DNA of 64,000 bases, taken from contig OY751488.1 in the NCBI GenBank assembly GCA_963565915.1, forward strand, positions 4,712,001 to 4,776,000, given 5' to 3'. The DNA comes from Entoloma clypeatum (lineage: Eukaryota > Basidiomycota > Agaricomycetes > Agaricales > Entolomataceae). This document shows positions 16,003-50,281 of this stretch, one piece after another (the first letter of the stretch is position 1; each line of letters opens with the position of its first letter). The notes beneath the pieces were generated by a model that worked only from the letters and a program-made list of their open reading frames with translations, was not told the DNA's origin and ran no database searches. The translations under genes were made by a program, and so were the position numbers.

Positions 16003-16016
16003 TAGGGTCTTTCAAA
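16003..16016 (+). repeat. Candidate left TIR of KDZ element
   Basis: TAGGGTCTTTCAAA, exact inverse of 50268-50281. Homology between the ends stops after these 14 bases, so this is suggestive, not proof. Confidence 0.45.
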
Positions 16017-16313
16017 GTAGCCATTTTGAGTCCATTTTGTAACCATTTTGATCTTCCTGGTGGCCCGAAAATGAGATCAAAATGAGATCAAGAAGGACAG
16101 TAGAAATGATGGCAGAAATAACCATTTCGGCAAAGGGACACCCGAGCATTATTTTACATGAAAATGCCATTTTGATTTTCCTGCTTATTTTCCTGCTCAG
16201 CATGATGGGAATGATTTCTTGTCACACTTTCCTAAATTGGCCTGTGCTCCCCCTTAAAAGATGTCAGAATTTGCCGGACCTTGATGGATACCCATGCCAA
16301 ACAATTCCCTGCA

Positions 16314-16448
16314 CAAAAAGGGTTTCATTTTCTCCATCATTTTTCTAACTTTTTTGACTGGGGGTCTCAAAGTTAATCATTTTGGACCCCTGCTGGTTCC
16401 CATGCTGAAGCCCATTAAGCAGTTTTTTCTGCCAAAATCATCAAAATG
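16314..16448 (+). repeat. 135-bp repeat, left copy (direct repeat with 50092-50226)
   Basis: About 135 bp starting near GGGTTTCATTTT and containing GGGGGTCTCAAAGTTAATCA matches 50092-50226 in the same orientation with roughly a dozen differences. Several differences are CpG in the right copy and TpG or CpA in the left copy (for example ACCGG versus ACTGG), as expected from decay of methylated CpG. Confidence 0.75.
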
Positions 16449-16539
16449 GCAGGTAGTCAACCTACACTGTATTGTAATATACGGTCTAGCGAACACATAC
16501 ACTGTATGGTAAATTACGGAAGCAGCGAATTCGCCACAG

Positions 16540-17170
16540 CGGGCGGCGACAGAATGAAATGTGGCCGGCGACAAGTCAATGCGGCCAGCAACAAACTCTA
16601 TGCCCCCGGCGACAAACTCAATGCAGCCGGCGACAGTCAATGCAGCCGGCGACAACGATCGGCCGACGACAGTCAAATGGAATGTGGCCGGCGACAACAC
16701 ATCAATCGACAGTCAAATGTTGGCCAGTGACGATGTCAATCCAGCCGGCGACAACAGGTCAATCCAGCCGGTGACCCTCAAATGAAATGTGGCCGGCGAA
16801 AAAACTCAATGGTCACCAGCGAAAGGAAGGACCGGCGAAAGGAAGGACCGGCGAAAGGAAGGACCGGCGAAAGGTGGCCGGCGACAAAACTCAATGCAGC
16901 CCTCAATGCAGCCAACACCAGGATTGCTGTTGTCATCTTGACGGAGTAGTCCGTTGCGGCATGAGACATTGATCTTGCCTGGACGTGTCGCCGGCACAAG
17001 ACATGTCCTGAGACCGGCAACACGGCAAACACGTACCGGCGAAACGATGGTCACCGGCGAAAGGAAGGACTGGCGAAAAGGTTTACCGGCAAAAGGAAGG
17101 GCGGCGAAAGGAAGGATCGGCGAAAGAATGTCGGTGAAAGGATGTCGAAAGGATGTCAGCGAGGAATCAA
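16540..17170 (+). repeat. Left subterminal array of CCGGCGAC / CCGGCGAAAGGA units
   Basis: First, 20-30 bp units with CCGGCGACAAACTCAATG-type sequence; then four close copies of GACCGGCGAAAGGAAG at about 16829-16880; then mixed units to 17170. The mirror array lies at 49328-49565. Such subterminal repeats commonly bind the transposase in large DNA transposons. They are contiguous and variable and have nothing to do with CRISPR. Confidence 0.8.
16918..17165 (-). pseudogene. Inverted partial copy of the KDZ transposase gene (intron/exon junction)
   Basis: Read on the minus strand, this segment matches 38775-39010 of the transposase gene: the TTCGCCGG-rich intron end, the acceptor region, and the start of the exon reading ARSMSHAATDY. 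A few substitutions separate them. The copy is broken off after about 16918. It shows that transposase-gene sequence was duplicated, inverted, into the left subterminal region. Confidence 0.75.
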
Positions 17171-17248
17171 GCCGGCGACAACAGTCATCTGTTACAAACC
17201 AGGAGGTGTTTCACGTTATCCTATTTTACATTGCAACCCCTAATGTAC

Positions 17249-18119
17249 CTATTCCCCATCGCCCAACCGCCCACCCGCACCCTCCCCATCTTGTTCCTGC
17301 ATTGCCCCACGATCTATATTGATGATCCTGTCGGCGATATTGTCGCTGACCATCTCATCAACCATTTGCCGGGTGTCAGCCGCCTGGCGCCGGGAAGTGT
17401 CAAGGGTGTGGATCCTGTGTACCTCTGCATGGTACAGACGGTGTGCAGCATCCTTGTAGCTGATGCCCAGCTGTGCCTGGAGGGCTTTGACCTCCGCATG
17501 AAGCGCGAGAAGTTCTCTATGGCTCAAACCCTATAGAAAGCGGTGAGAGCGAAACACACAGGGGAGGGAAATGACATACTGGTACAGCGGGTGCTGGGAC
17601 AGTACCCCGGTTGATGAGGCCTGACGACAGGGCTTCCATAGAAAGGGGCTGAGGAGCAAGGAGGTCAGCCGGATGAATAAGACACTGATCGGCGAAACAT
17701 AGCAAAAGGCTGCTCGGCGAAAAGACCAGCGAACAAGACAAACAAGACCGGCGAACACTGCACGGCGAATAACCGGCGAAGAGCATCGGCGAATGACCCT
17801 GCACGGCGAATAACCGGCGAAGAGCATCGGCGAATGACCGGCGACAACTTGTCGGCCAACAAATATCGGCGACGATGCTCATCCGCACACATGAGGTGGA
17901 TGGAGTCAAGGAATGTGGTGGTGGGTGGTATGGGGAACAGCTCACCCCTCCTGCGGCGTGCTCCACATCAAGAGAGCGCCGCATCTCTGCCATGTTCAGG
18001 GCCAGATCCGTGGCAGGGACAAGGAAATTTGGCACCAGATACTCGTGCCCATCCGGGGTGGTACCTATTGTATAGCCCGGCGGCACATCACGATGGGGTT
18101 GGTTGGATGGGGCAGACAT
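17249..18119 (-). CDS. KDZ cargo gene A, hypothetical three-exon gene
   Basis: Exon 1 18119-17946 (MSAPSNQPHRDVPPGY... to AAGG), exon 2 17648-17580 (PLSMEALSSG...), exon 3 17530-17249; all three introns-exon joins keep phase 0 and use GT-AG (GTGAGC, GTATGT donors). The product is about 175 residues. The last exon is helical with LHAEVKALQAQLG and SYKDAAHRLYHAEV, probably a coiled coil. Intron 1 (17649-17945) is packed with TTCGCCGG motifs (as CCGGCGAA on the plus strand). No catalytic motif seen and no function assigned. It lies inside the KDZ transposon next to its left array. Confidence 0.6.
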
Positions 18120-19198
18120 GAGGAGTAGCAGAAAAGAAGGCGACCGGTGGGAATTAGGTTGCCGATCATCACAATGATCAGGGCGGAAGTAGTCACGTGT
18201 TAGAAAAGTTTGTTTTTTTTTGTTTATTCAACGGCGAGCGGCGATTACACACGTTTCCAACTCATCTACCTACCTACTACCAACACATTTCCACAACACC
18301 GCCCTCAAGATGTCCGCTACTCCCCGCAAGACCAGAGACATTGTCACCGACTTCGCCCGTTTTGACGCCACCATTCGCAAGGGGATGGCTGATGGGACCA
18401 TCATTGAAGGGTTAAAGGGGATGAAGGGAAAGTTGGTGAGTAACCCCCGGAGCCGTTGTATTGACCCAATTCTAACGTATTTCACGAACAGTTGAAATTG
18501 TTCAAGGAAGCAGCGGGGCAACCGGCAGCACCGTTTGTCAGGTTCGCCTGGATAAATCAGTTCGTCGTGTCCTGGGCCCACAAGCGCAAAGAGGACGGGT
18601 TTCTGGAAGGTCAACGCCTCGCCCTGGCAACGTTCGACAGCCTGCGGGTACAAGAGGCAACGGCCCCTGTCACTGCACCATTGGCTGGGCCAAGCAATGT
18701 GCCGACAGGAGCCGCGGGTGGACGTCCGACACCACGCCCCCTTACGGCGAAGGGCAAAGAACCGGCGAAGGGCAAAGAACCGGTGAAGGGAAAAGAGACG
18801 GCGAAGGGAAAGGAAACGGCGAAGGGAAAGGAAACAGCGAAGGAACAGGAGGGGGAGGGGAATGGCAGGCGATCAAGGGAGACAGGGGAAGCCCGGCACG
18901 GGGGGTCAGAGGAGATGGAGGTGGACGAGTTGTCGAAGGAGAAGATGGCGACGGCAAAGGAGAAGACAGAAACGGCGAAGATAACGGCGACAACAACGGC
19001 AAAAACAACAACGGCAAAAACAACGGCAACAACAACGGCGACGGCGAAGCAACCGGCGAAGAAGATAGTGGGTACAGCAAAGGCAGGAACAGGAAAGGTG
19101 GCGAAGGACGCACCTGCGAAGATGACGCTGAGGTCGAAGCCAACCGTGGCTTCAAGCAGTGACGAGGATGAGCAACCAGCACCAGCCCGAGGCGAGAC

Positions 19199-19546
19199 TG
19201 TTACGGACTAACGACTACGGACGTATACGCTTACTTTTTCATTCTTACTCATCGGGCCCCGCTTACCTATATTCTATGACACTCTACTTCCATTAGTATA
19301 CTTCGCTCCCGCGCTGACTCGCTTTCCGCAGTCGTCTTACTCAGACGCACTGCCTTCCGCAGTTATCTTACTCAGATACACTGCCTTGCGCAGCACTGAC
19401 TCATATGCTATCGCCTATAGTCAGTACCTATATAAACCCTTTGTACTATAGCTAGGTTCCTTAGATTTAGCAATCACATTGCTCTTCGCCTTTCCATCTT
19501 CCTGCATACTCTGCCCGAACCTTGGAACGGTTTGTTACGCATAACA
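19199..19546 (+). repeat. A2 5' LTR with promoter
   Basis: TATATAAA at 19429-19436 and predicted RNA start AGATTTAGCAA at 19463-19473. It lacks the 20-bp U3 unit found in A1. Confidence 0.95.
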
Positions 19547-19548
19547 AG

Positions 19549-19559
19549 TTGCTAAATCT
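19549..19559 (+). promoter_or_regulatory. A2 self-priming primer-binding site
   Basis: TTGCTAAATCT, two bases after the LTR, is the exact 11-nt complement of the predicted RNA 5' end at 19463-19473. No tRNA 3'-end match (TGG start) is present at this place. Confidence 0.75.
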
Positions 19560-20337
19560 CGTTAGGTTCGCCCAGAGCGAAGAGAGCAACTACCAGACGA
19601 GTCAAGACGTCGCGCTTCTTTGAAGACTTCACCAGTAACCCATTCGCCTCACCAGAAGCCCGACAGGAGGAGCTAAGTCCTCGAGACAGTATCGATTTTA
19701 CACTCATCCAGCAGTACATCGAATCGGAGATCCGTCGCATCCTACAGCAGGTGCTTGACGAAGAACTAGACAACGACGAGCATCGCCCCCACGGCGAGAT
19801 AGCAGAGAGCATCCATCTTGCTCGGCAACATCAGATCGCGCGTTACAACGCCCGACAGAACGAACTCGAAAGCTTTCGCGTTCAAGAAGGACCTCAGACA
19901 GGTCGGATCACAGAGATCAGAGAGTTTATCGGTGTCCAGACAACCGTTATCAGAAGATTGATTAGGACGCTCACATTGAGACGTCCCAGAGCCGCATCAC
20001 CACGTCTTACTCGAAGCAGCAGATCTACGCCCACTTCACCACCAACGAGCAACAGACCGAGTACAACCGTTGGGCACGAAACGAGAGACTTGACCCCTTC
20101 TCACGACCAACAGACGCGCAGGAACAGAGATTCCTTAGAGATCTACAGAGGAAATACCCCGAACGTTTTGCCACCGATTCCGCCGACGAGTCCCCTGACG
20201 AATTTACTTTTGACTCCGCGCAGTCAGATACCGAACAGACGCCTAGAACAGGGACTAATTTTCAACCCCTACCTGTATCCCGAACCCCATCTTCATCCCA
20301 ACAACCCGACACCTCTCCTACTCCGCAGGTTCTAGAC
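19560..20337 (+). promoter_or_regulatory. A2 ATG-free gag leader
   Basis: From the predicted RNA start (19463) to the gag ATG (20338) I find no ATG in 875 nt on the sense strand, against more than ten on the other strand. A frame without AUG is open from about 19555 to 20335 (starting ISLGSPRAK); a second, in frame with gag, opens after a TAG at about 19955 and runs into gag with protein-like composition (FTTNEQQTEYNRWARNERL). Confidence 0.6.
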
Positions 20338-21204
20338 ATGGCAGAAGCACTGACAGTGCAAACGATGGATACATCCAAGATCATCAAAGATCCTGGGATG
20401 TTCAAAGACAGACACACCTTTGACGAGTGGTGGAAAGCCACCAAACTATACATCAGGTTCCAGAAGGGCCTGTCCGACGATCAGAAGATCCTGGCGGTGT
20501 TATCCCGCATGATGGAAGGGTCCGGTAAACACTGGGCCAGCAACAAGTTAGACGATCTTGCTACCGATGGCGAGAACATCACCTGGTTAGGGTTCTCAGA
20601 CGACATCGCTACGCGATTCTCTATTGCCAACAAGTCAGCAGCGGCCAAGGCGAGACTCGAAGTCCTGAAACAGGAGAAACGCACCATTGACGAATTCTTG
20701 GACGAATTCGAAGAGCTCTTGAAGCTGTCAAACCTTGGCGAAGAAACTGGGAAATACATCCTGGAAAAGAACGTCAACCGCAGAATTTCTGAACAAGTGG
20801 CTAGCGATGGCAAGACGTACACCGATTACGCAAAGGAGATCCGAAACAAGGGACGACAGATGGAGGGACATGCATTAGTCATCCGAGGGGGTGGCGACAC
20901 ACGCACCGGATCGGGCACCACTTATGGTGGTCAAGGCAAAGCCATGGAGATCGACAAAGCAGGAGTAGCCCGTTGCTACAACTGTCAACGTTTCGGTCAC
21001 CTCGCTAAAGACTGCAGCGCTCCAAAGAAGAAAGATGGTCGCAAGTGTTTCAACTGCGACCAAGAAGGCCATATTGCGCGCAACTGCCGCAAGCCGAAGA
21101 AGAACTCCGGAAGGGTTAGGAAGGTGTCTGAGGAAGATGCCGAGAAGGATGAAACCACAATCTTAGAAGCCGACGAGAAGGATTTTCCCGAAGGGTCCGA
21201 TTAA
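20338..21204 (+). CDS. gag: A2 Gag with two CCHC zinc knuckles
   Basis: 288 codons beginning at the first AUG of the predicted transcript, in strong context (GACATGG). Same capsid-like region and knuckles [14 protein letters not shown] and [14 protein letters not shown] as A1; the acidic tail differs (EEDAEKDET). It packages element RNA into particles. Pol overlaps in the -1 frame. Confidence 0.93.
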
Positions 21205-21224
21205 ACGACGCTAAGTCGCGACCC
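21180..21224 (+). promoter_or_regulatory. A2 candidate -1 frameshift signal
   Basis: GGATTTT at 21180-21186, six-base spacer, then GGGTC (21193-21197) paired with GACCC (21220-21224) around CGAC-GCTAA-GTCG. The pol frame is open from here through the gag stop (21202-21204). Confidence 0.55.
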
Positions 21225-21245
21225 TTATCTATTAAACGGACTTGC

Positions 21246-24200
21246 TTGCCTTGTATGACTGCAGACAATAGAACCTATGTCATCCCTGCCAAGCGAGCCG
21301 CTGCGTCGACTAAGATTGTGAAGGGAGACAAACCTCCGAAACGACGAGAGATCAGGCTGTTAGCTCAGCTCAAAACACGACGAGGACCAAAGGTCATTCG
21401 ACCTGAGGTTGATAGTGGATGTGAACGCACATGCATCCATCCCAGAATAGTACGCGAACAGAACCTCCCTACGCGAGGAATACCGCCCATAGCAATTCTA
21501 AATGCGGATGGATCACCAAATCGACAACAGAGAGCGAACCAACTTGCCGAAGTCAAGCTGGATTTGGGAACACATCAGGAAACCATGGAAGCGATGGTAC
21601 TGGACATCGGGAGAACTGACATGCTCTTGGGACATGACTGGTTGGTACACCACAATCCTACGATCAATTGGACAACCGGCGCTGTAACGTTCAACCGGTG
21701 CCCAGCAACATGCCGAACCAAACATTCGGAATTCAGGGTTAACCTTGATGGTCGCAAACACCGGGTTCGCATGGTTGAAGTGCGCGACAAAGATGCACCC
21801 AAGAAGTCGGATCAGAAATGGAAGCCTGGAGACCCTATATTGGAAGCTGTCACTCCCACACCACCTCCCACAACCAAACGACCCTCATATGTTGATCGAT
21901 TTACTCACCTCTTCGAGAAGGAGAACTTTGATAAGATCCCGAAGGAAAGGGAATGGGACCATGGTATTGAACTTACACCGGACGCACCAAAGGAACTAGG
22001 GGGAAACACATATCCCATGACACAAAAGGAACAAGAGGAATTGGACGCATTCATTGACGAGGGTCTAGCAACTGGAAAGATCCGCCCGTCCAAATCCCCT
22101 TATGCCTCCCCTTGCTTCTTCATCAACAAGAAGGATGGTTCCAAACGATTGGTACAAGACTACCGCATGGTCAACAAATTCACGGTCAAAGACAAATTCC
22201 CACTCCCTCGCATCTCCGATCTCTTGGACGTGCTGAAAGATGCAGTCTACTTCAATAAGATGGACATCATGTGGGGTTACAACAATGTCCGGATTAAAAA
22301 AGGCGATGAATGGAAGGCTGCCTTCCTTACCAGTCGAGGATTGTTTGAACCATTGGTCATGTTTTTCGGCCTTTGCAACTCCCCGGGAACATTCTCTCGG
22401 ATGATGGCTAGTCTATTCCGGGACCAGATCCGCCGACGCATCTGCGTGATCTACATGGATGACATCGTGGTTATTGGTAAAACCAAGGAAGAACTCGCGC
22501 GAAACACCGAAGAAATTCTGCAGATCCTATCGGACAATGACTTGTTCCTGAAGGAGAAGAAGTGTTTCTGGGAAGTAACAAAATGCCCCATATTGGGATA
22601 TGTCGTTGGTGAAGGACGTGTCGAGATGGAAACCGAGAAGGTGGACACGATCCAGAACTGGCGAACACCCACATCAAAAAAGGAAGTCCAGAAGTTCCTT
22701 GGGTTTGCTAACTTCTATCGGCGCTTCATTGAAGGATACTCAAACATCGCGAAACCACTTACCGCGCTCACAGGCGGCACTGCGTTTACTTGGGGACCAA
22801 CGGAACAAAAGGCATTTGAAGGTCTCATACAGGCGATCACATCGGCACCAGTCTTGGCATTACCAAAACCAGATGGACAGTTCAGGGTCGAAACCGATGC
22901 ATCGGGCTATGCAATTGGGGCTGTACTCTCTCAAAAACAGGACGACAAATGGCATCCTATCGCGTTCTTGTCGCGGACCATGTCCGCGGCCGAACAAAAT
23001 TACGAGATATACGACAAAGAGCTCTTGGCAGTCATGGAAGCACTGAAAGATTGGAGACACTATCTGCTCGAAGCCAGGGAACGCTTCGAGATCTTAACTG
23101 ATCACAAGAACCTGGAGTATTTCCGCCGTCCTCAGGACCTAAATCAACGGCAAAGGCGCTGGAAGATGAAGTTACAAGATTATGACTTCGAACTACGGCA
23201 TGTGCCTGGCAAGACAAATGCAAAAGCGGACATCCTGTCGCGCTTACCCTGGTATGAAACGGAACTCGAACCGCAAGACAGTGACCAAATGCTCAAGGAG
23301 GGACTATTCTTGAAACGATTGGAATCAGAAGATGTGGTACAAATGGAGATGTTCACGGAGGAACAATTCTTTGAAGGGGGTGAAACATCTGAGTCCATCA
23401 AGATTGGAAACGTCACAACCATCGAAAATCCGTGGATCGCACGCATCAAGGGTTCAAACCGCATGGAGACAGAAGTAGCCCAGGGTCTAAAAAAGAACCC
23501 TCATTGGTATCAACAGGAAAACGGCATCACATATGCAGGCGAACGAGTCTATGTTCCACCGGACCCACAACTGCGTCAAGAACTAATGTTTGAATCACAC
23601 GATGCACCAGTGGCTGGACATCCAGGACAGTATCGAACACATGAACTCCTCACTCGCACCTACTGGTGGCCTACCATCCTGCATGATGTAAAGAAGTACG
23701 TAAAGGGTTGCAACACCTGTCAGCGCAACAAGATCAACAGACAGAAACGACATGCTCCGCTACACCCCCATGCAGCACCAAGTCATCCATGGGAAGACAT
23801 AGGGATTGACGTCGTGGGACCAATACCAGAGTCTGATGGAAAGAATGCGATCCTGGTCATCACGGATAGACATTCGAAGATGCTTCATCTCATTCCGACA
23901 ACCATGGAATTATCGGCTGAAGGATTAGCCAAGATCTATCGGGATCAGATATGGAAGCTCCACGGAATCCCCAAGAAAATCATCAGCGACAGGGGACCAC
24001 AGTTCGCCGCGAAGTTCATGGAGATACTTTGCCGCATGTTAGGGATCAAAAGGAACCTGTCCACCGCATACCACCCACAGACGGATGGACAAGCCGAACG
24101 ATCGCATCAGGAAACAGAAGCGTTCTTACGAAACTTTGTCAACCATCTGCAAGATGATTGGGCTGAATGGATCGCGATCGCCGAATTCCAGTACAATGAC

Positions 24201-24854
24201 AAAGAACATCAGGCGACGAAGCATACACCATTCTACCTCAACTATGGCTTACATCCTTGGAAGGGAGAACTTGTGTTGGAAGACACCAACCCGGCTGCCA
24301 ACAGCTTCTTGGAAAAACTCAAACAAGCACGAGAAGAAGCCAATGCAGCGCTGAAACAGGCACAGGATCAGATGAAGAAGACAGTTGATACACGACGGAG
24401 TCCATCTCGAAACTACCGCATCGGAGACAAGGTGTGGCTGGAAGGGACTAACATCAGAACTAACCGCCCCTCGAAGAAACTTGACGCACTCCGACACGGA
24501 CCATTCAAGGTCCTAGAGAAGAAAGGGGCTAGCGCATATGTTCTTGATCTTCCAAAGACTTGGAAAATGATCCACCCTGTGTTCAACGAGACCCTGTTGT
24601 CGCCATACGAAACCCCGAAGTATGCCATTCAGAAAAAGAAGCCAGCCCCTGATCCGATCATCGTCGAAGGACGAGAAGAATACCATGTCTCCACGATCCT
24701 GGACTCTCGGAAATTCCGCGGAAAGATCCAGTACCTTGTCCAATGGGAAGGGTATGGCCCAGAAGAGAACACGTGGGAACCTCGGGATAATGTTCAGAAT
24801 GCTCAAGACTTGATCCGAGATTTTCATCGGCAAAATCCATCGCGTCCACGATAA
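21246..24854 (+). CDS. pol: A2 Pol polyprotein (protease, RT, RNase H, integrase, chromodomain)
   Basis: About 1200 codons. Protease DSG near residue 56, RT YMDDIV near 403, RNase [12 protein letters not shown] near 549, integrase finger CNTCQRNK near 826 and D-D-E near 854/912/951, chromodomain near 1144-1178 ([13 protein letters not shown] ... ENTWEP). Chromodomain integrases steer insertion to marked chromatin in related elements. The frame is open upstream of 21246; an ATG at 21255 exists in A2 and A3 but not in A1, so it is unlikely to be the required start. Intact by eye. Confidence 0.94.
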
Positions 24855-24970
24855 AAGATAAATCGCGAAATCCATTTTCCATACCGATTTCTGTCACATC
24901 GAGTTCCCCGCTCCAACTCTCCTCGCCCAACACGCCGTTCTTCTTATACCTTTCGAACCTCATCTCCACC

Positions 24971-25336
24971 ATGTCCAACATCACCACCTCCACCGACGCT
25001 TCCGACATCAACCCCACCATTACCACCCTCATTGGCGAAGCGCTCTCCATGCGCGACCAGATCCATGCGCTTGAAACCTCCGTCGCCGACATCCTCCACC
25101 GACAGATGCATATCCGTCTCCACACCCTATCCGACTTGCCAACCGCTCCCACCGCTGAGGAGAAACTTATCCTCAAAAATTATACCAACACCCTGGCCGT
25201 CGAGAATCGACGCCTTCGCCTCGCCGTTCGAGGTTTAGAGTTTGCCACGGCGGTAAACGATGAACTGATAAAGGATTGGGGTAACCGAGTTGACCCTGCC
25301 TGGGCCGATCCAAATGGCAACGATGGATGGGAGTAG
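24971..25336 (+). CDS. A2 third ORF, small helical protein of unknown function
   Basis: 121 codons, MSNITTSTDASD... to GNDGWE, 116 bp after the pol stop. Same predicted coiled-coil protein as in A1 and A3. Conserved with mostly silent differences from A1. Function unknown. Confidence 0.75.
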   Translation: MSNITTSTDASDINPTITTLIGEALSMRDQIHALETSVADILHRQMHIRLHTLSDLPTAPTAEEKLILKNYTNTLAVENRRLRLAVRGLEFATAVNDELIKDWGNRVDPAWADPNGNDGWE

Positions 25337-25373
25337 GTAGTCTGTGAGGACACAGACCTTGAGGAGGGGAACA

Positions 25374-25721
25374 TGTTACGGACTAACGACTACGGACGTA
25401 TACGCTTACTTTTTCATTCTTACTCATCGGGCCCCGCTTACCTATATTCTATGACACTCTACTTCCATTAGTATACTTCGCTCCCGCGCTGACTCGCTTT
25501 CCGCAGTCGTCTTACTCAGACGCACTGCCTTCCGCAGTTATCTTACTCAGATACACTGCCTTGCGCAGCACTGACTCATATGCTATCGCCTATAGTCAGT
25601 ACCTATATAAACCCTTTGTACTATAGCTAGGTTCCTTAGATTTAGCAATCACATTGCTCTTCGCCTTTCCATCTTCCTGCATACTCTGCCCGAACCTTGG
25701 AACGGTTTGTTACGCATAACA
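25374..25721 (+). repeat. A2 3' LTR
   Basis: 348 bp; no difference from the 5' LTR seen. Preceded by the polypurine tract CTTGAGGAGGGGAA. Confidence 0.95.
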
Positions 25722-26751
25722 GAGACGACGCAAGGCTGCAGGAATTACGCTCAGCGAGCCCCTGTCCACACCGGCGAATACAACAACATCCCGTGCGATA
25801 GGTGCAAATTGAAGGCGCAGCCGTGTGAGAAGGAGAAGTTTGCTGCAGCGTGTTATGCCTGCTACACGCTGAAGGGGAAATGCCTGACTGGTGGCGAGGC
25901 GCCTCAGAGGAAGAAGAAGACCAAGATGGAGGGCCGCAGTGCGTCACGAAAGGCGAAACCGGCGAAGGAGGCACCATGGCAGAAGGCAACGAAGGCGACT
26001 GAATATGTGGAGGTAGAGACAGAGGTGGACGGTGACGATGAGGACGACGAAGATAAGAACGGCAATGTGGCAACTGGCCCAGGAGCAACCACCTCCTGGC
26101 GACGACCCATCAGCGACGGCGAAGCCAGGGGTGACACTTTGCCGGCGGCGCGTTCGACGCTGCCCCCCGCCCTCACGGATGCGCGTGAGTAATTATACTG
26201 AATCATTTCTTGGACATCATCTCAAGCAGTCTGGCCTGGCAGTGGAGCTATACCTGGTGGACTGGTTCCGCCAGCAGGGAACCATCTCGCAGCGGGCATA
26301 CCATACACAGAGTGGCGCCCTCTTCAAACTCGAAGGGCAGATCAACAAGCTCACGAACCGCTTCAACCGGATCCTCGAGGGGGCAAATGCACAGCTGGCG
26401 ATGCAGGAGGAGAACACGTACTCCCGCCTGTTGTACATGGAGGACACAATAGAGGGGTTGAACGTCAGGTTGACGGACATCGAGAACTACCTGGGTTTCG
26501 ACCGCCGTCCCGCCCACGACGACCGTGAGTACTGGCGACCCTACCTTCCCCCACCACCAGAAGTCAACGTAGAGCGCCTCTGGCCTGCGGACCCCGAGGG
26601 GATGGACCCTGAGCACTACAAGATGGGGGGGTGGCAGCAGGACAAGGGTGCATGGCAAGATTCGCCCCTGCGACGGCCATCGACGATGAGTGACCCGCCG
26701 TCATCGACCCCTCGCGCCTCGCGCCGACCACCCTTCGCCGGATCCTTCGCC

Positions 26752-27139
26752 TGTTAGCGACGCTAAACACCAGTACTCAGGCCTTGCGAGAGAGGAAACG
26801 TGGAGGAAAGGGAAAGGCTTTAGAATGAGGTTTGAAGCGGTAGAAACCAGCTCAAGACTGGGGTTCCATGTTCAAACTATCTACTATATATACTAGTCGT
26901 AACAGGTACCTACCCTAAACGTACATGCACCTTGCATGAGGACGATCCGTGGTCCGCTGATGTAAACTACTGCTGTGGTACTCAACATGTATCTTCCACG
27001 ACTTACTGCGGCTGCGCTGGATACTGTGCATCTACCATGCTGCTACCATGAGTCTGGATAAGATAAGATGATCTACCATCAGATAAGATAAGATGAGATA
27101 AGATAAGATAAGAGAAAAGATGAAAAAGTGTTTATAACA
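26752..27139 (-). repeat. B1 3' LTR
   Basis: TGTTATAAACAC...CGCTAACA in element orientation. Near its start is a cluster of about eight CTTATC/GATAAG motifs (27057-27117), potential GATA-factor sites. Confidence 0.93.
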
Positions 27140-27299
27140 TCACCCCTCCCTTAAGATTGTGCCCTCACAATCTCTTCGAGTTCTATCTCGCATTCTCGTA
27201 TAAGTCTTGCTTGATAGTTTTCTCGTATCTCCCTATACTTTGTTGCCGTTATCCACATGGCCACCATAAGCCCCACCATTATTGCGTAGAAAACAATCA

Positions 27300-27975
27300 T
27301 CACAATAAACTCTCGTTCCATTTTCCTTCTGTCCACTCGTTTATAGGTTTTGCAGTGGTAAGGTTTTCGTATGGTACAAAGTTTAGTCGAATGTTTATTG
27401 GTCGGGGTGCCGATGGATGGTGAGCGTGAAATTCTTCAACAGCTCCTGGAGCGTCGACTTTGATGGTGGACGCTGGTTCCCATGAGCATTCTTCGATCGG
27501 ATATCCAGCCCACTTTACCAGATATTGAAGTCCCCGTCCCTTAACTCTTGAATCCAAGATTTTCTCTATCTCGTATCGCGCTTCTCCGTTAACGACTTCC
27601 GGAGGTGGAGGAGGCGGTTTCTGCTGAGTTGGGTATGTGGCGGGTGTGAATAGGGTGAGGAGTGATTCGTGGAAGACGTCAAAGTGTTGCCACGCTTTTG
27701 GCAGTTCAACTTTATATGATGCGCTTCCAACTTTTCTCACGATCGGAAAGGGGCCGAGACGTCGGTCATCAAGCTTCTTGGCAGGGCGTCCGGTTTTTAT
27801 ATGACTTGCCTCTATATAGACTAAGTCTCCTTGTTTGTACGTAATTACCGGGCCTTTCTTTTTATCGAAGGTCCGTTTCATCGCATCGGCTGCTTGTTTT
27901 AACGCTGCTTCTGCTTCTTCATGAGATTTTGCCATTTGTTTTGCAAAGTCTTCCGCTTCTGGTCGTCTCTCTGAT
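27300..27975 (-). pseudogene. pol: B1 Pol C-terminal part (integrase tail and chromodomain)
   Basis: This frame resumes after the integrase deletion with AEDFAKQMAKSHEEAEAAL, the helix normally found downstream of the integrase core, then a GPFPIV segment and a chromodomain (YLVKWAGYPIEECSWEP). It is out of frame with the upstream pol, so it is not translated as part of Pol in this copy. Confidence 0.8.
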
Positions 27976-32900: not shown

Positions 32901-32902
32901 AT

Positions 32903-38718: not shown

Positions 38719-38953
38719 GTAAGTATTCCACAATCATCCCTTTCTTGTTTCCCTGACGATTTCTTCGCTGATATCCTTTCACCGACATTCTTTCGCCAAT
38801 CATCCCTTTCGCCGGTCCTTCCTTTCGCCAATCCTCCCTTTCGCCAATCCTTCCTTTCGCTGTCCTTCCTTTCGCCGGTTACCATCCTTTCGCCGGTACA
38901 TGTTCGCCATTTCGCCGGTCTCAGTACATGTCTTGTGCCGGCGACACGTCCAG
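38719..38953 (+). other. TTCGCCGG-rich intron of the KDZ transposase gene
   Basis: Donor GTAAGT at 38719. The body contains about ten TTCGCC(GG) copies between 38775 and 38935. The reverse complement of this stretch plus the following exon start is present at 16918-17165. The acceptor is not certain: the obvious CAG at 38951-38953 does not keep frame. Confidence 0.55.
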
Positions 38954-40085
38954 GCGAGATCAATGTCTCATGCCGCGACGGACTACTTCGTTAAGATGAC
39001 GACGGCAATCACCCATGATCATGTGAACAACTGGGAGACAGAAATTAAAGCTGCTGAAGCACGTCGCCTCGCCGATGTCACGGCAATGGATATTCTACGT
39101 ACTCATACAACCGAGCCCGAGGAGCCTGTCGATATAATGCCAAGTGAGGTGCACACCCCGGTGGAAGAATAGATAAGAATGGCCCTCAATATTGTGTGTC
39201 ACTCACTTGTAATCCTTCTGATTTCTGGGCAGGATTGAGTTAGAGGACCGTCTCCGGCATTGGAAAAAGAACCCTCGGCCTGAAGATGCAAAACAGATTG
39301 AACACCTTCAAGATAATCTCACATCCCAGCTGACTGTGCTCAATACATTGCAACAGCAGGTTGGGGTGCTGGGAACAGTGGCACCAGATACATCAACATC
39401 AGATGATCCAACAGCCTTTGACGATCTTGATGATGATGAGCATAAAGGCGAGAGCGATGACGACGGTGACGTCCCCAGCCGCTATACTGTCACCGGCAAC
39501 CTCCCACATGAACACCGGCCACTTGTCTTGCCTTCCACTGTGTCTGGTCGCAATCAAGCTCACTGTGCTGTAGAGGTGGCCGAGCGAACGAGGCAGGCCA
39601 CACGGCATCTCAATGCACTTCGCACCATCATCGCCGACAAATCCTTTCACTACTCCCATGTCATCCGAGTAGCACCCCAGAAAAGTGTCAAAACTCGAGC
39701 TCGAGCCGCGATCATCAAGCTCAATCAGCAGATTTCTTTCCATTCTCGAGTATATACATGATGCAGGGCGGCCCTCAGCCGGCTGCAAGCTTCGCCAGAC
39801 GTCATGGCGAGATTTCGGGTTTTAAGCCGAGACAACCTGAAGTGCAGCACGGCTGTTCTGGATCCCAACATCCAGGGTTCAACAACTCTACGCCTGTCCT
39901 GGATATGGCAGATGCAACTGGGTATCAATCCTACATCGCCGGCGGCCGTGCAAGAATGTTAGTCGCCGTGTATTGTCGCCGTGGATCTTCTGATCGCCTT
40001 TTAGTCCAACGTGTTCATTGGTTACATGCACGAGCACGAAGCCACCGCTGGGAGGAGGAAGTCATCCTTGTCCAATATGAGATGG

Positions 40086-40433
40086 TGTTATGCGTAACAA
40101 ACCGTTCCAAGGTTCGGGCAGAGTATGCAGGAAGATGGAAAGGCGAAGAGCAATGTGATTGCTAAATCTAAGGAACCTAGCTATAGTACAAAGGGTTTAC
40201 ATAGGTACTGACTATAGGCGATAGCATATGAGTCAGTGCTGCGCAAGGCAGTGTATCTGAGTAAGATAACTGCGGAAGGCAGTGCGTCTGAGTAAGACGA
40301 CTGCGGAAAGCGAGTCAGCGCGGGAGCGAAGTATACTAATGGAAGTAGAGTGTCATAGAATATAGGTAAGCGGGGCCCGATGAGTAAGAATGAAAAAGTA
40401 AGCGTATACGTCCGTAGTCGTTAGTCCGTAACA
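40086..40433 (-). repeat. A3 3' LTR
   Basis: 348 bp, preceded in element orientation by the polypurine tract at about 40436-40450. Confidence 0.95.
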
Positions 40434-40470
40434 TGTTCCCCTCCTCAAGGTCTGTGTCCTCACAGACTAC

Positions 40471-40836
40471 CTACTCCCATCCATCGTTGCCATTTGGATC
40501 GGCCCAGGCAGGGTCAACTCGGTTACCCCAATCCTTTATCAGTTCATCGTTTACCGCCGTGGCAAACTCTAAACCTCGAACGGCGAGGCGAAGGCGTCGA
40601 TTCTCGACGGCCAGGGTGTTGGTATAATTTTTGAGGATAAGTTTCTCCTCAGCGGTGGGAGCGGTTGGCAAGTCGGATAGGGTGTGGAGACGGATATGCA
40701 TCTGTCGGTGGAGGATGTCGGCGACGGAGGTTTCAAGCGCATGGATCTGGTCGCGCATGGAGAGCGCTTCGCCAATGAGGGTGGTAATGGTGGGGTTGAT
40801 GTCGGAAGCGTCGGTGGAGGTGGTGATGTTGGACAT
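40471..40836 (-). CDS. A3 third ORF, small helical protein of unknown function
   Basis: 121 codons, same sequence as the A2 protein; coiled-coil-like, no membrane segment. It occupies the position where env-like genes sit in some Ty3/Gypsy elements but has no env features. Confidence 0.75.
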   Translation of the reverse strand: MSNITTSTDASDINPTITTLIGEALSMRDQIHALETSVADILHRQMHIRLHTLSDLPTAPTAEEKLILKNYTNTLAVENRRLRLAVRGLEFATAVNDELIKDWGNRVDPAWADPNGNDGWE

Positions 40837-40952
40837 GGTGGAGATGAGGTTCGAAAGGTATAAGAAGAACGGCGTGTTGGGCGAGGAGAGTTGGAGCGGG
40901 GAACTCGATGTGACAGAAATCGGTATGGAAAATGGATTTCGCGATTTATCTT

Positions 40953-43900
40953 TTATCGTGGACGCGATGGATTTTGCCGATGAAAATCTCGGATCAAGTC
41001 TTGAGCATTCTGAACATTATCCCGAGGTTCCCACGTGTTCTCTTCTGGGCCATACCCTTCCCATTGGACAAGGTACTGGATCTTTCCGCGGAATTTCCGA
41101 GAGTCCAGGATCGTGGAGACATGGTATTCTTCTCGTCCTTCGACGATGATCGGATCAGGGGCTGGCTTCTTTTTCTGAATGGCATACTTCGGGGTTTCGT
41201 ATGGCGACAACAGGGTCTCGTTGAACACAGGGTGGATCATTTTCCAAGTCTTTGGAAGATCAAGAACATATGCGCTAGCCCCTTTCTTCTCTAGGACCTT
41301 GAATGGTCCGTGTCGGAGTGCGTCAAGTTTCTTCGAGGGGCGGTTAGTTCTGATGTTAGTCCCTTCCAGCCACACCTTGTCTCCGATGCGGTAGTTTCGA
41401 GATGGACTCCGTCGTGTATCAACTGTCTTCTTCATCTGATCCTGTGCCTGTTTCAGCGCTGCATTGGCTTCTTCTCGTGCTTGTTTGAGTTTTTCCAAGA
41501 AGCTGTTGGCAGCCGGGTTGGTGTCTTCCAACACAAGTTCTCCCTTCCAAGGATGTAAGCCATAGTTGAGGTAGAATGGTGTATGCTTCGTCGCCTGATG
41601 TTCTTTGTCATTGTACTGGAATTCGGCGATCGCGATCCATTCAGCCCAATCATCTTGCAGATGGTTGACAAAGTTTCGTAAGAACGCTTCTGTTTCCTGA
41701 TGCGATCGTTCGGCTTGTCCATCCGTCTGTGGGTGGTATGCGGTGGACAGGTTCCTTTTGATCCCTAACATGCGGCAAAGTATCTCCATGAACTTCGCGG
41801 CGAACTGTGGTCCCCTGTCGCTGATGATTTTCTTGGGGATTCCGTGGAGCTTCCATATCTGATCCCGATAGATCTTGGCTAATCCTTCAGCCGATAATTC
41901 CATGGTTGTCGGAATGAGATGAAGCATCTTCGAATGTCTATCCGTGATGACCAGGATCGCATTCTTTCCATCAGACTCTGGTATTGGTCCCACGACGTCA
42001 ATCCCTATGTCTTCCCATGGATGACTTGGTGCTGCATGGGGGTGTAGCGGAGCATGTCGTTTCTGTCTGTTGATCTTGTTGCGCTGACAGGTGTTGCAAC
42101 CCTTTACGTACTTCTTTACATCATGCAGGATGGTAGGCCACCAGTAGGTGCGAGTGAGGAGTTCATGTGTTCGATACTGTCCTGGATGTCCAGCCACTGG
42201 TGCATCGTGTGATTCAAACATTAGTTCTTGACGCAGTTGTGGGTCCGGTGGAACATAGACTCGTTCGCCTGCATATGTGATGCCGTTTTCCTGTTGATAC
42301 CAATGAGGGTTCTTTTTTAGACCCTGGGCTACTTCTGTCTCCATGCGGTTTGAACCCTTGATGCGTGCGATCCACGGATTTTCGATGGTTGTGACGTTTC
42401 CAATCTTGATGGACTCAGATGTTTCACCCCCTTCAAAGAATTGTTCCTCCGTGAACATCTCCATTTGTACCACATCTTCTGATTCCAATCGTTTCAAGAA
42501 TAGTCCCTCCTTGAGCATTTGGTCACTGTCTTGCGGTTCGAGTTCCGTTTCATACCAGGGTAAGCGCGACAGGATGTCCGCTTTTGCATTTGTCTTGCCA
42601 GGCACATGCCGTAGTTCGAAGTCATAATCTTGTAACTTCATCTTCCAGCGCCTTTGCCGTTGATTTAGGTCCTGAGGACGGCGGAAATACTCCAGGTTCT
42701 TGTGATCAGTTAAGATCTCGAAGCGTTCCCTGGCTTCGAGCAGATAGTGTCTCCAATCTTTCAGTGCTTCCATGACTGCCAAGAGCTCTTTGTCGTATAT
42801 CTCGTAATTTTGTTCGGCCGCGGACATGGTCCGCGACAAGAACGCGATAGGATGCCATTTGTCGTCCTGTTTTTGAGAGAGTACAGCCCCAATTGCATAG
42901 CCCGATGCATCGGTTTCGACCCTGAACTGTCCATCTGGTTTTGGTAATGCCAAGACTGGTGCCGATGTGATCGCCTGTATGAGACCTTCAAATGCCTTTT
43001 GTTCCGTTGGTCCCCAAGTAAACGCAGTGCCGCCTGTGAGCGCGGTAAGTGGTTTCGCGATGTTTGAGTATCCTTCAATGAAGCGCCGATAGAAGTTAGC
43101 AAACCCAAGGAACTTCTGGACTTCCTTTTTTGATGTGGGTGTTCGCCAGTTCTGGATCGTGTCCACCTTCTCGGTTTCCATCTCGACACGTCCTTCACCA
43201 ACGACATATCCCAATATGGGGCATTTTGTTACTTCCCAGAAACACTTCTTCTCCTTCAGGAACAAGTCATTGTCCGATAGGATCTGCAGAATTTCTTCGG
43301 TGTTTCGCGCGAGTTCTTCCTTGGTTTTACCAATAACCACGATGTCATCCATGTAGATCACGCAGATGCGTCGGCGGATCTGGTCCCGGAATAGACTAGC
43401 CATCATCCGAGAGAATGTTCCCGGGGAGTTGCAAAGGCCGAAAAACATGACCAATGGTTCAAACAATCCTCGACTGGTAAGGAAGGCAGCCTTCCATTCA
43501 TCGCCTTTTTTAATCCGGACATTGTTGTAACCCCACATGATGTCCATCTTATTGAAGTAGACTGCATCTTTCAGCACGTCCAAGAGATCGGAGATGCGAG
43601 GGAGTGGGAATTTGTCTTTGACCGTGAATTTGTTGACCATGCGGTAGTCTTGTACCAATCGTTTGGAACCATCCTTCTTGTTGATGAAGAAGCAAGGGGA
43701 GGCATAAGGGGATTTGGACGGGCGGATCTTTCCAGTTGCTAGACCCTCGTCAATGAATGCGTCCAATTCCTCTTGTTCCTTTTGTGTCATGGGATATGTG
43801 TTTCCCCCTAGTTCCTTTGGTGCGTCCGGTGTAAGTTCAATACCATGGTCCCATTCCCTTTCCTTCGGGATCTTATCAAAGTTCTCCTTCTCGAAGAGGT

Positions 43901-44561
43901 GAGTAAATCGATCAACATATGAGGGTCGTTTGGTTGTGGGAGGTGGTGTGGGAGTGACAGCTTCCAATATAGGGTCTCCAGGCTTCCATTTCTGATCCGA
44001 CTTCTTGGGTGCATCTTTGTCGCGCACTTCAACCATGCGAACCCGGTGTTTGCGACCATCAAGGTTAACCCTGAATTCCGAATGTTTGGTTCGGCATGTT
44101 GCTGGGCACCGGTTGAACGTTACAGCGCCGGTTGTCCAATTGATCGTAGGATTGTGGTGTACCAACCAGTCATGTCCCAAGAGCATGTCAGTTCTCCCGA
44201 TGTCCAGTACCATCGCTTCCATGGTTTCCTGATGTGTTCCCAAATCCAGCTTGACTTCGGCAAGTTGGTTCGCTCTCTGTTGTCGATTTGGTGATCCATC
44301 CGCATTTAGAATTGCTATGGGCGGTATTCCTCGCGTAGGGAGGTTCTGTTCGCGTACTATTCTGGGATGGATGCATGTGCGTTCACATCCACTATCAACC
44401 TCAGGTCGAATGACCTTTGGTCCTCGTCGTGTTTTGAGCTGAGCTAACAGCCTGATCTCTCGTCGTTTCGGAGGTTTGTCTCCCTTCACAATCTTAGTCG
44501 ACGCAGCGGCTCGCTTGGCAGGGATGACATAGGTTCTATTGTCTGCAGTCATACAAGGCAA
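40953..44561 (-). CDS. pol: A3 Pol polyprotein
   Basis: About 1200 codons with the same domain order and motifs as A2 (protease DSG, RT YMDDIV, RNase H, integrase HHCC and DDE, chromodomain); I see no amino-acid difference from A2. Intact by eye. Expected to be made by -1 frameshifting at 44621-44627. Confidence 0.94.
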
Positions 44562-44583
44562 GCAAGTCCGTTTAATAGATAAG

Positions 44584-44627
44584 GGTCGCGACTTAGCGTC
44601 GTTTAATCGGACCCTTCGGGAAAATCC
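44584..44627 (-). promoter_or_regulatory. A3 candidate -1 frameshift signal
   Basis: GGATTTT (44627-44621 in element orientation) with the same six-base spacer and nested inverted repeats as in A1 and A2. Confidence 0.55.
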
Positions 44628-45469
44628 TTCTCGTCGGCTTCTAAGATTGTGGTTTCATCCTTCTCGGCATCTTCCTCAGACACCTTCCTAACCCTTCCGG
44701 AGTTCTTCTTCGGCTTGCGGCAGTTGCGCGCAATATGGCCTTCTTGGTCGCAGTTGAAACACTTGCGACCATCTTTCTTCTTTGGAGCGCTGCAGTCTTT
44801 AGCGAGGTGACCGAAACGTTGACAGTTGTAGCAACGGGCTACTCCTGCTTTGTCGATCTCCATGGCTTTGCCTTGACCACCATAAGTGGTGCCCGATCCG
44901 GTGCGTGTGTCGCCACCCCCTCGGATGACTAATGCATGTCCCTCCATCTGTCGTCCCTTGTTTCGGATCTCCTTTGCGTAATCGGTGTACGTCTTGCCAT
45001 CGCTAGCCACTTGTTCAGAAATTCTGCGGTTGACGTTCTTTTCCAGGATGTATTTCCCAGTTTCTTCGCCAAGGTTTGACAGCTTCAAGAGCTCTTCGAA
45101 TTCGTCCAAGAATTCGTCAATGGTGCGTTTCTCCTGTTTCAGGACTTCGAGTCTCGCCTTGGCCGCTGCTGACTTGTTGGCAATAGAGAATCGCGTAGCG
45201 ATGTCGTCTGAGAACCCTAACCAGGTGATGTTCTCGCCATCGGTAGCAAGATCGTCTAACTTGTTGCTGGCCCAGTGTTTACCGGACCCTTCCATCATGC
45301 GGGATAACACCGCCAGGATCTTCTGATCGTCGGACAGGCCCTTCTGGAACCTGATGTATAGTTTGGTGGCTTTCCACCACTCGTCAAAGGTGTGTCTGTC
45401 TTTGAACATCCCAGGATCTTTGATGATCTTGGATGTATCCATCGTTTGCACTGTCGGTGCTTCTGCCAT
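44603..45469 (-). CDS. gag: A3 Gag with two CCHC zinc knuckles
   Basis: 288 codons; starts MAEAPTVQ where A2 has MAEALTVQ; otherwise the same protein. First AUG of the predicted transcript. Confidence 0.93.
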
Positions 45470-46247
45470 GTCTAGAACCTGCGGAGTAGGAGAGGTGTCG
45501 GGTTGTTGGGATGAAGATGGGGTTCGGGATACAGGTAGGGGTTGAAAATTAGTCCCTGTTCTAGGCGTCTGTTCGGTGTCTGACTGCGCGGAGTCAAAAG
45601 TAAATTCGTCAGGGGACTCGTCGGCGGAATCGGTGGCAAAACGTTCGGGGTATTTCCTCTGTAGATCTCTAAGGAATCTCTGTTCCTGCGCGTCTGTTGG
45701 TCGCGAGAAGGGGTCAAGTCTCTCGTTTCGTGCCCAACGGTTGTACTCGGTCTGTTGCTCGTTGGTGGTGAAGTGGGCGTAGATCTGCTGCTTCGAGTAA
45801 GACGTGGTGATGCGGCTCTGGGACGTCTCAATGTGAGCGTCCTAATCAATCTTCTGATAACGGTTGTCTGGACACCGATAAACTCTCTGATCTCTGTGAT
45901 CCGACCTGTCTGAGGTCCTTCTTGAACGCGAAAGCTTTCGAGTTCGTTCTGTCGGGCGTTGTAGCGCGCGATCTGGTGTTGTCGAGCAAGATGGATGCTC
46001 TCTGCTATCTCGCCGTGGGGGCGATGCTCGTCGTTGTCTAGTTCTTCGTCAAGCACCTGCTGTAGGATGCGACGGATCTCCGATTCGATGTACTGCTGGA
46101 TGAGTGTAAAATCGATACTGTCTCGAGGACTTAGCTCCTCCTGTCGGGCTTCTGGTGAGGCGAATGGGTTACTGGTGAAGTCTTCAAAGAAGCGCGACGT
46201 CTTGACTCGTCTGGTAGTTGCTCTCTTCGCTCTGGGCGAACCTAACG
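45470..46247 (-). promoter_or_regulatory. A3 ATG-free gag leader
   Basis: As in A1 and A2: no sense-strand ATG between primer-binding site and gag, two long AUG-less overlapping frames. Confidence 0.6.
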
Positions 46248-46258
46248 AGATTTAGCAA
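46248..46258 (-). promoter_or_regulatory. A3 self-priming primer-binding site
   Basis: TTGCTAAATCT in element orientation, two bases inside the LTR, exact complement of AGATTTAGCAA in the LTR. Confidence 0.75.
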
Positions 46259-46260
46259 CT

Positions 46261-46608
46261 TGTTATGCGTAACAAACCGTTCCAAGGTTCGGGCAGAGTA
46301 TGCAGGAAGATGGAAAGGCGAAGAGCAATGTGATTGCTAAATCTAAGGAACCTAGCTATAGTACAAAGGGTTTACATAGGTACTGACTATAGGCGATAGC
46401 ATATGAGTCAGTGCTGCGCAAGGCAGTGTATCTGAGTAAGATAACTGCGGAAGGCAGTGCGTCTGAGTAAGACGACTGCGGAAAGCGAGTCAGCGTGGGA
46501 GCGAAGTATACTAATGGAAGTAGAGTGTCATAGAATATAGGTAAGCGGGGCCCGATGAGTAAGAATGAAAAAGTAAGCGTATACGTCCGTAGTCGTTAGT
46601 CCGTAACA
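46261..46608 (-). repeat. A3 5' LTR
   Basis: 348 bp. TATA region reads TATGTAAA (plus strand TTTACATA near 46371) instead of TATATAAA. Confidence 0.95.
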
Positions 46609-46932
46609 GATGGGTTGGACGACCCGATATTTTATCCATCAACGGGACATTTGGGACAGCCGGCGACAAGTCGCCACTTCGCCGGGACTCATGGCACATG
46701 CAGCGAGAAAGGCGGCGATGTGGCAGATCCTTGTGACAGATGCTGAAGATGAATTTGCGGGTACTACAAGGTCATATGTGCGGATAATTGAGTAGTGTTT
46801 TCACATTTACACATAAAATAAGGAAAAAAAACATGCATGTAACGTGTAACAATGTGACACATGGCATAAGCACATTGTTATCTGTCACATTTACCGCCAT
46901 CTTCTTCTCATCCACAGTCTATTGCAACTACA

Positions 46933-49243: not shown

Positions 49244-49327
49244 TATGCCTATAGCGGGGTACCATTGTTATTACATTATACTATATACAGATGTCTACCC
49301 TTCTTCTCTACAATAAAATGAGCCTTG

Positions 49328-49565
49328 GTTGTCGCCGGCCATATTGAACCACATTGAATTGTTGTTGCCGGCTGCATTTACTGTTGCCGGCTGCATTGAG
49401 TTTGTCGCCGGCCACATTGACGTTGTCGCCGGCTGCATTGAGTTTGTCGCCGGCCACATTGACGTTGTCGCAGGCTGCATTGAGTTTGTCGCCGGCTGCA
49501 TTGACTGTCGCCGGCTGCGTTGGGTTTGTCGCCGGCTGCATTGAGTTTGTCGCCGGATGCATTGA
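49328..49565 (+). repeat. Right subterminal array of GTCGCCGGC units
   Basis: About ten units of 20-25 bp of the type GCATTGAGTTTGTCGCCGGC, the inverse of the units at 16560-16800. Non-coding. Together with the left array it brackets the KDZ element. Confidence 0.85.
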
Positions 49566-50091
49566 TCAAGGTTTCCAGACCCTAAACAACATCTGAATCT
49601 ACGAACAGATCACTCCAAGAACAAATTTCACCTCTGGCCATCACCTGCACAATTCCGCCATCATGGCTGGCGTGAGCAAGCGCACTGAAGTTCAGTGAGT
49701 TATGCGCCTCGCCATACCATGAAAAACATCGTCGGGACATCGCGAGTATCATTTGGGTCAATTGGAGGACAGAGAGGAGGGGCGACCTTGGCCGTGGGCG
49801 AGCAACACACTAGAGCGGGGGAAAGGGTTCAGATCGCAAGGAGATCCCGGACAATCAAAATGTTCATAAGCGATGCTAAGCGGTTAGAAATGGTGGATTT
49901 AGACTAGAGGGGGGGGTGGAGGACCCTCGTTCAGATGCAAGGTTTAGAAACGGTGTGTTTTCGAACCCCAATGACAGATGCATGTACCTCGTCCACATTT
50001 GGCTCGGCTACACTCACATCAAGGGTTTAGAAAGGTTTAGATTTTATTTTTAGCTTTCTAAACGTTACGGAAAGTCATCCAATCCCCTGCG
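49566..50091. other. Right terminal region of KDZ element; no gene
   Basis: Contains several GGTTTAGAAA motifs (about 49940-50035). Short frames are not protein-like. Confidence 0.4.
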
Positions 50092-50226
50092 CAAAGAGGG
50101 TTTCATTTTCGCCATCATTTCGCTAACTTTTTTGACCGGGGGTCTCAAAGTTAATCATGTTGGACCCCTGCCGGTTCCCATGCCGAAGCCCATTAAGCTA
50201 TTTTTTCGGCCAAAATCATCGAAATG
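50092..50226 (+). repeat. 135-bp repeat, right copy (direct repeat with 16314-16448)
   Basis: Same orientation as the left copy, and richer in CpG. Direct rather than inverted orientation is unexpected for element ends. Confidence 0.75.
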
Positions 50227-50267
50227 GGTGCTGGCATGGGATCCAGCAGGAACCTGGCAGGTCCAAT

Positions 50268-50281
50268 TTTGAAAGACCCTA
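50268..50281 (-). repeat. Candidate right TIR of KDZ element
   Basis: TTTGAAAGACCCTA, exact inverse of 16003-16016, followed by ATG-TTAGC flanking sequence. Confidence 0.45.

Follow-up and report, generated by a model that had tools for sequence, protein, structure and literature searches.

A TET-less Kyakuja-type KDZ transposon in Entoloma clypeatum, with four accessory genes and a dispersed family-specific word

What kind of unit surrounds a KDZ transposase gene in a 64,000-nucleotide stretch of the Entoloma clypeatum genome (contig OY751488.1, positions 4,712,001 to 4,776,000; hereafter the window)? KDZ transposons have been noted mainly as carriers of TET/JBP genes. An earlier note on this DNA proposed a transposon at 16003-50281, 14.7 kb long once three later retroelements are subtracted, which carries four genes of obscure function (A, B, C and E) besides its transposase (here D) and no TET/JBP gene. 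The letters A, B, C and E had no coordinates in that note, and their assignment to the coordinates in Table 1 was made in this analysis. Copies were sought in the fungus's own genome (60 Mb in 20 contigs, of which C1, C2, C5, C6, C8, C9, C12 and C14 are cited). The window holds an old, truncated, retroelement-riddled copy of a TET-less Kyakuja-type KDZ transposon. The fuller reading, that this is one transposon with five genes of its own and a word read by one of its proteins, is favoured here with moderate confidence.

The element and its ends

The proposal that the transposase and genes A, B, C and E form one transposon is borne out by copies elsewhere that are bounded by terminal inverted repeats (TIRs), by target site duplications (TSDs), by an empty site and by repeated co-occurrence of the genes. 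Its limits, however, are not those proposed. The sequence CAGGTAGTCAACC adjoins different flanks at 17 loci, the window included, which puts the element's own left end (beginning CAGGTAGTCAACCTACACTG) at 16450, and the right terminus is lost at ~49566. Homology to the C12 copy ceases at 49565, 189 bp before that copy ends, and complete copies extend by these 189 bp to a right end reading ...GGTTGAGTATGTG (in C12 ...TATATG). Two copies read end to end, C12:476175-489926 and C14:179.8-193.6k, are 13750 and 13761 bp long and share 95.0% and 94.9% identity with the window copy where the two align. The net length is thus ~13.5 kb in the window and ~13.75 kb in these copies, rather than 14.7 kb.

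In the C12 copy, the one in which they were measured, the left and right ends agree at 130 of 140 terminal positions, giving near-TIRs of ~140 bp; an internal TIR 22-mer has 162 genome-wide matches at up to 2 mismatches, and its reversed control has 0. Copies of the element end in the dinucleotides CA..TG. Among 13 copies with both ends read, seven have exact 7-bp TSDs, three agree at 6/7 positions and three have no match, one of the latter abutting the right end of another copy. The TSD of the window copy cannot be read, its right end being lost. A paralogous empty site of the C12 copy lies in the window itself, where matches to the two C12 flanks (99.0% over 194 bp and 98.3% over 475 bp) meet at the insertion point.

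The identification of D as a KDZ transposase is secure (PF18758, E=1.3e-34, 120 bits against a cut-off of 26.6). Upstream of this domain lie two CxC2 fragments, with E=0.018 and 2.5e-4, both below the Pfam cut-off. From the form of the copies, D would cut and paste the element between its CA..TG ends with a 7-bp target duplication. Among the element open reading frames (ORFs) scanned, Pfam gave no match to a tyrosine-recombinase captain of the Starship kind, the transposase being KDZ. In the window, D is shorter by 47-49 bp at ~37598 than in the C12 and C14 copies, a difference that probably breaks its reading frame. With B and D also cut by retroelements, the window copy is probably not autonomous.

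Within the reach of Pfam PF12851, the element has no TET/JBP gene: the profile has 11 matches in the genome and none in the window, a search that very divergent PE-type enzymes could escape. Three of the 11 have KDZ copies of 45-47% identity at a distance of 13-20 kb, and none lies near a KDZ copy of at least 60%. One match, at C8:3819020, has a short E fragment (C8:3821752) ~3 kb away and is the only one near an accessory gene (within 22 kb).

The 7-bp TSDs and CA..TG ends make the element Kyakuja-type, with the near-TIRs as a difference. In the part of PMC12730594 drawn on here, Kyakuja elements are flanked by 7-bp TSDs and end in CA..TG, the TSDs of Zisupton and Dileera are 8 bp long, and Kojima describes Kyakuja-1_LB and -2_LB of Laccaria bicolor as without TIRs. 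The near-TIRs speak against the placement to that extent, a lack of TIRs not being known as defining beyond those two elements. The TET-carrying Kyakuja elements of Agaricomycetes in the same source share the KDZ transposase, the 7-bp TSDs and the CA..TG ends, whereas the window family has no Tet_JBP match and has ~140-bp near-TIRs, a conserved A, B, C, E set and a dispersed self-word. KDZ1 of Cryptococcus neoformans (~11 kb, 241-bp TIRs; PMC12810828, in part) likewise combines a KDZ transposase with a CxC zinc-chelating region and long TIRs, but it has 8-bp TSDs and CxC1, the window family being CxC2-like. At Pleurotus ostreatus KDZ loci, intact KDZ genes are preceded by a CxC2 cysteine cluster, comparable to the fragments below cut-off upstream of the KDZ domain here, and the section of PMC7641404 concerned mentions no accessory set.

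A dispersed word and its possible reader

The shared internal octamer of the earlier note proves to be far above chance. TTCGCCGG is the commonest 8-mer of the window element, where it occurs 41 times in 13.5 kb, as compared with a single occurrence in 49.3 kb of control (the retroelements and flanks of the window). In 20 shuffles that approximately preserve dinucleotides, the count of the top 8-mer never went above 7. The C12 and C14 copies have 23 and 32, and 3.6 kb of flanks have 0. Genome-wide there are 1736 sites, against 1270 for the reversed word; this density of ~0.03 per kb compares with ~3 per kb inside the element. On C1 (3.26 Mb), three intervals bounded by TIRs, together 18.5 kb long, hold 46 of the first 100 sites listed. 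The C1 interval 135616-140417 has 21 sites and no A-E protein match, so that arrays persist where the genes are gone.

Within the window element the word is spread over 16 of 28 bins of 500 bp. It is densest in the subterminal arrays, which are mirror images as the earlier note had it (14 CCGGCGA and 1 TCGCCGG on the left, 0 and 8 on the right), and in the presumed introns of A, where there are further CGGCGAA units, and of D, where the array at 38717-38996 is similar, inverted, to 16922-17166. It also enters the modelled exons, with 25 sites against a mean of 4.6 and a maximum of 10 in 500 synonymous-codon shuffles within genes. The exonic excess holds in each gene tested, and exonic sites occur in four of the six strand/phase combinations (FAG, PA, TGE, SP).

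A sister element at C9:3441-3454k, whose sequence was taken as two adjoining pieces, carries A, B-like, C, KDZ and E genes in the same order, A alone being inverted relative to the window family. Here TTCGCCGG is absent and ACCGGCAC occurs 17 times (shuffle maximum 6) in 10 bins of 500 bp; similarly, at C9:4655k there are 11 copies of ACCGGCAC (shuffle maximum 4) in 4 bins and none of TTCGCCGG. Two family-specific dispersed words, TTCGCCGG and ACCGGCAC, are therefore clear. A third, CAGCAACA/GGCAGCAA, found 7 times each at C6:1649k and C1:3964k, is tentative. In a locus without detected accessory genes (L057) the top 8-mer reaches 5, the shuffle maximum being 4; next to a TET-associated KDZ gene, 3 kb of sequence gave 3, below the shuffle maximum of 4.

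In the favoured reading, the subterminal arrays would be putative binding sites needed in cis, and a DNA-binding protein encoded by the element would find and coat its own element through the word in introns and exons. Each family would have its own word, read by an accessory protein. Self-recognition of this kind is favoured, at roughly even chances. The best candidate for the binder, on architecture, is B, with a basic region, a cysteine cluster (CDRCKLKAQPCEKEKFAAACYACYTLKGKC), a helical stretch and a basic C-terminus. Gal4-type Zn2Cys6 domains bind CGG triplets, and a Zn2Cys6 reading of B is attractive because TTCGCCGG and ACCGGCAC both contain CGG. The cysteine spacing in the window family, CX2CX6CX8CX2CX6C, fits this reading, but it was set aside as no more than a lead, since B has no Pfam match and the sister lacks one cysteine.

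The main competitor is that the words are no more than binding sites for the transposase, or for a TnpA-like protein, near the ends, and that the internal copies are by-products of slippage in the arrays and of gene conversion, found where the proteins can bear repeats. End-proximal transposase-binding words are known for other cut-and-paste transposons. The word is indeed densest at the ends and in introns, where it runs in tandem through exons of D and C it yields the simple repeats FAGDTT and PAN, and its sites are not conserved after insertion. Less easily accommodated are the scattered single sites in B, C and E, which lie on both strands and in four phases above the synonymous-shuffle expectation, and the sister's different word, given a transposase that is 77% identical. 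This alternative is plausible, at somewhat less than even chances.

Several observations weigh against a word read by an element protein. Pfam gave no match for B, its cysteine cluster included, a database search found no relative of B, and its sister counterpart keeps 5 of the 6 cysteines. The third word, at 7, is no stronger than the top 8-mer of retroelement 1 (7), and a different 8-mer occurs 14 times in retroelement 2; paired LTR copies (long terminal repeats) explain 6 of the 7 and 12 of the 14 sites, respectively. Nor are word sites better kept than other sequence: CpG retention is 294/398 in octamers and 3918/4990 elsewhere, and non-CpG retention 764/798 and 72933/74396. Selective protection of word sites was sought by these counts and none was found. 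That octamer CpGs decay as fast as others implies that dead copies are unshielded and that any selection on the word acts on active copies.

The decay itself suggests what coating might be for. Between the window copy and 13 other full or partial copies, the CpG differences number 2195, of which 2115 are CA/TG, and CpG context accounts for 70% of 3150 substitutions; this bias is the mark of methyl-cytosine decay. Coating would most likely help transposition and/or relieve silencing by cytosine methylation, the latter being proposed because the copies diverge mainly by CpG decay. As the purpose of self-recognition, argued from analogy, anti-silencing is plausible, though at well below even chances.

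The analogy is with the VANDAL elements of plants, which are Mutator-type. Marking of the whole element recalls their VANC proteins, because a transposase would need only sites near the ends. In VANDAL elements, VANC proteins attach to words peculiar to the family and strip away methylation (PMC5735166, in part). As described there, the VANDAL words are also short, arrayed in terminal regions and introns and different between related families, and the accessory proteins are fast-changing; VANC words are mainly non-coding, whereas the word of the window family is also in exons. Among the A, B, C and E ORFs, Pfam gave no match over cut-off to the VANC family. A TET-free fungal counterpart of VANC, in which each Kyakuja subfamily has a fast-evolving DNA-binding protein matched to its own word, is a doubtful proposal. 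The whole element, exons included, would then bear a mark of self, by which it escapes CpG methylation or is rid of it, and the TET-carrying Kyakuja elements of the same genome would use an enzyme instead. If true, a TET-less branch with a constant four-gene set and a changing self-word would mean that fungal transposons can evolve sequence-specific self-recognition as VANDALs do. How fungal transposons cope with DNA methylation could then be tested on concrete proteins and DNA words, and the branch might also be a source of family-specific DNA-binding proteins.

The accessory genes

Exon queries gave 77 matches for D, 73 for E, 50 and 39 for two parts of B, 48 for C and 37 for A. The co-occurrence of A, B, C and E with KDZ genes was checked within 22 kb on either side of merged KDZ loci, a radius at which a neighbouring copy's genes can be counted in. 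Of 22 loci at least 89% identical (one of them a 24-residue fragment), 16 have A, B, C and E and four have B, C and E, so that B, C and E lie near 20 of the 22. At 60-88% identity, eight of 12 loci have at least one of the four genes; the other four, which showed none, count against a fixed set. All 29 loci below 60% lack them. In distant elements a missing E or C may reflect the detection limit. Matches without KDZ in this radius number 14/34 for A, 20/57 for B, 8/37 for C and 25/73 for E, but only 4 A, 3 B, 1 C and 13 E of these also lack another accessory gene, and the genes are thus not mostly stand-alone host genes.

The earlier note allowed for either transposition partners or selfish cargo. 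The first is favoured, and cargo is less likely, because the set persists in the sister family, where KDZ is 77% identical to that of the window family and E only 34% (C about 25-49% by exon, the A exon counterpart 48-49%). Five proteins would be encoded by the element, the transposase D along with A, B, C and E, and these last four are probably products of its own genes and not of passengers. From these identities the accessory proteins appear to diverge much faster than the transposase. That the four are captured passengers useless to the transposon is improbable. No known domain ties them to transposition, but they are kept in a strongly diverged family and near 20 of 22 close KDZ loci, and E and C have relatives elsewhere. 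The relative of C, in Cyclocybe aegerita, has 24% identity over 99% (E=2.1e-34); E has five metagenomic relatives at 27-30% identity, and its KWTWG and LPHxGYDxSL motifs are common to all seven aligned sequences.

The ORFs of the four genes have no Pfam match over the curated cut-off. A profile of E found nothing in PDB below E=0.33. Codon tests on the element exons gave dN/dS (the ratio of non-synonymous to synonymous substitution rates) of 0.20-0.82, with 0.28 for exon 1 of A over 12 copies, which is compatible with coding, if weakly. Three points count against the favoured reading: the ratios are only moderate and a frame-shifted control was erratic (0.30-1.56); the shifted ratio fell below that of the true frame in C exon 1, C exon 5 and the D cysteine exon; and predicted structures were uninformative, with mean pLDDT (predicted local confidence) of 40.5 for E and 36.4 for the Cyclocybe relative of C, values too low for a fold search. 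A literature search limited to open-licence PMC papers found no account of the A-B-C-E set, which, as far as the searches went, is undescribed in a known transposon class.

The sister element is CpG-poor, its observed/expected ratio being 0.51, against 0.89 for the window element and 0.96-0.99 for the retroelements. An ORF upstream of its B (C9:3451.6-3452.2k) reads THSYRRGAV...WWG, which we take to resemble the C-terminal part of tyrosine recombinases.

Retroelements and flanking repeats

Table 1. Features of the window
Feature	Positions	Strand	Remarks
Empty site, paralogous, of C12 copy	3346..4006	.	TSD ACCTCTG; two flank matches meeting at insertion point
Left MITE part	16005..16449	+	Insertion target; its end mistaken for element TIR
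Left end and left TIR	16450..16589	+	Different flanks at 17 loci; C12 ends alike
Left subterminal array	16544..17210	+	CCGGCGA units
Gene A, small protein	17249..18119	-	37 own-genome matches; exon boundaries inferred
Gene B	18310..33904	+	Interrupted by retroelements 1 and 2
LTR retroelement 1	19199..25721	+	Ty3-like by ORFs; later insertion; TSD GAGAC; LTR identity 99.2%
LTR retroelement 2	26752..33287	-	Later insertion; TSD TCGCC; LTR identity 99.7%
Gene C, ~585 aa	34175..36140	-	5 exons (model)
Gene D, KDZ transposase	36393..46792	+	Upstream CxC2-like cysteines; interrupted by retroelement 3; end inferred from C14 copy
Array in presumed intron of D	38717..38996	+	4 octamers in 280 bp
LTR retroelement 3	40087..46608	-	Later insertion; TSD GATGG; LTR identity 99.7%
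Gene E, ~750 aa	46932..49243	+	2 exons (model); 73 own-genome matches
Right subterminal array	49349..49566	+	TCGCCGG units; element homology ends, TIR missing
Dispersed repeat outside KDZ element	49566..50080	.	Genome matches
Right part of MITE	50080..50281	+	Probably different copy

That the three retroelements came later, as first proposed, is confirmed by their closely similar LTR pairs, their 5-bp TSDs and the C12 copy, which is uninterrupted at their sites. Retroelements 1 and 3, both absent from the C12 copy, are close kin, the body of the latter being 99.9% identical to the former. Retroelement 2 (33292 and 26752) landed in a TTCGCC copy, as its TSD records. Outside the element, 8263-14829 holds an older retroelement related to 1 and 3 (~91.5%), and its LTRs are identical (100% over 370 bp).

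The TIRs first proposed, AGGGTCTTTCAAA, belong to something else. AGGGTCTTTCAAA/TTTGAAAGACCCT are the ends of a ~0.5-kb miniature inverted-repeat transposable element (MITE), whole at C6:259239 and C6:115047, which are probably one duplicated insertion because their flanks are shared, and also present at C8:4918216 with a ~150-bp insert. The left-end query 16003-16499 splits accordingly, positions 1-447 matching few places and 447-497 dozens. The boundaries 16003/50281 were therefore rejected. A 34.3-kb element between them is very nearly certain to be wrong. Its 13-bp inverted ends do exist, as do the apparent 3-bp repeats flanking them, but the same ends bound the MITE elsewhere, and CAGGTAG or its counterpart forms the end of every copy examined. 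The two MITE pieces of the window share a 148-bp overlap at 90.5% identity and so are not two sides of one clean insertion. The repeat of ~515 bp between the truncated element and the right MITE piece recurs at C5:4052035 (92%) and C2:5441906 (89%).

Some 109 kb downstream on the same contig, at C6:4837178, a KDZ right end is followed by the same MITE, at the position where the left end of the window copy sits (16449), and the two loci together have a matching 7-bp TSD, AAAATGG. Both carry E sequence, which suggests local duplication or rearrangement.

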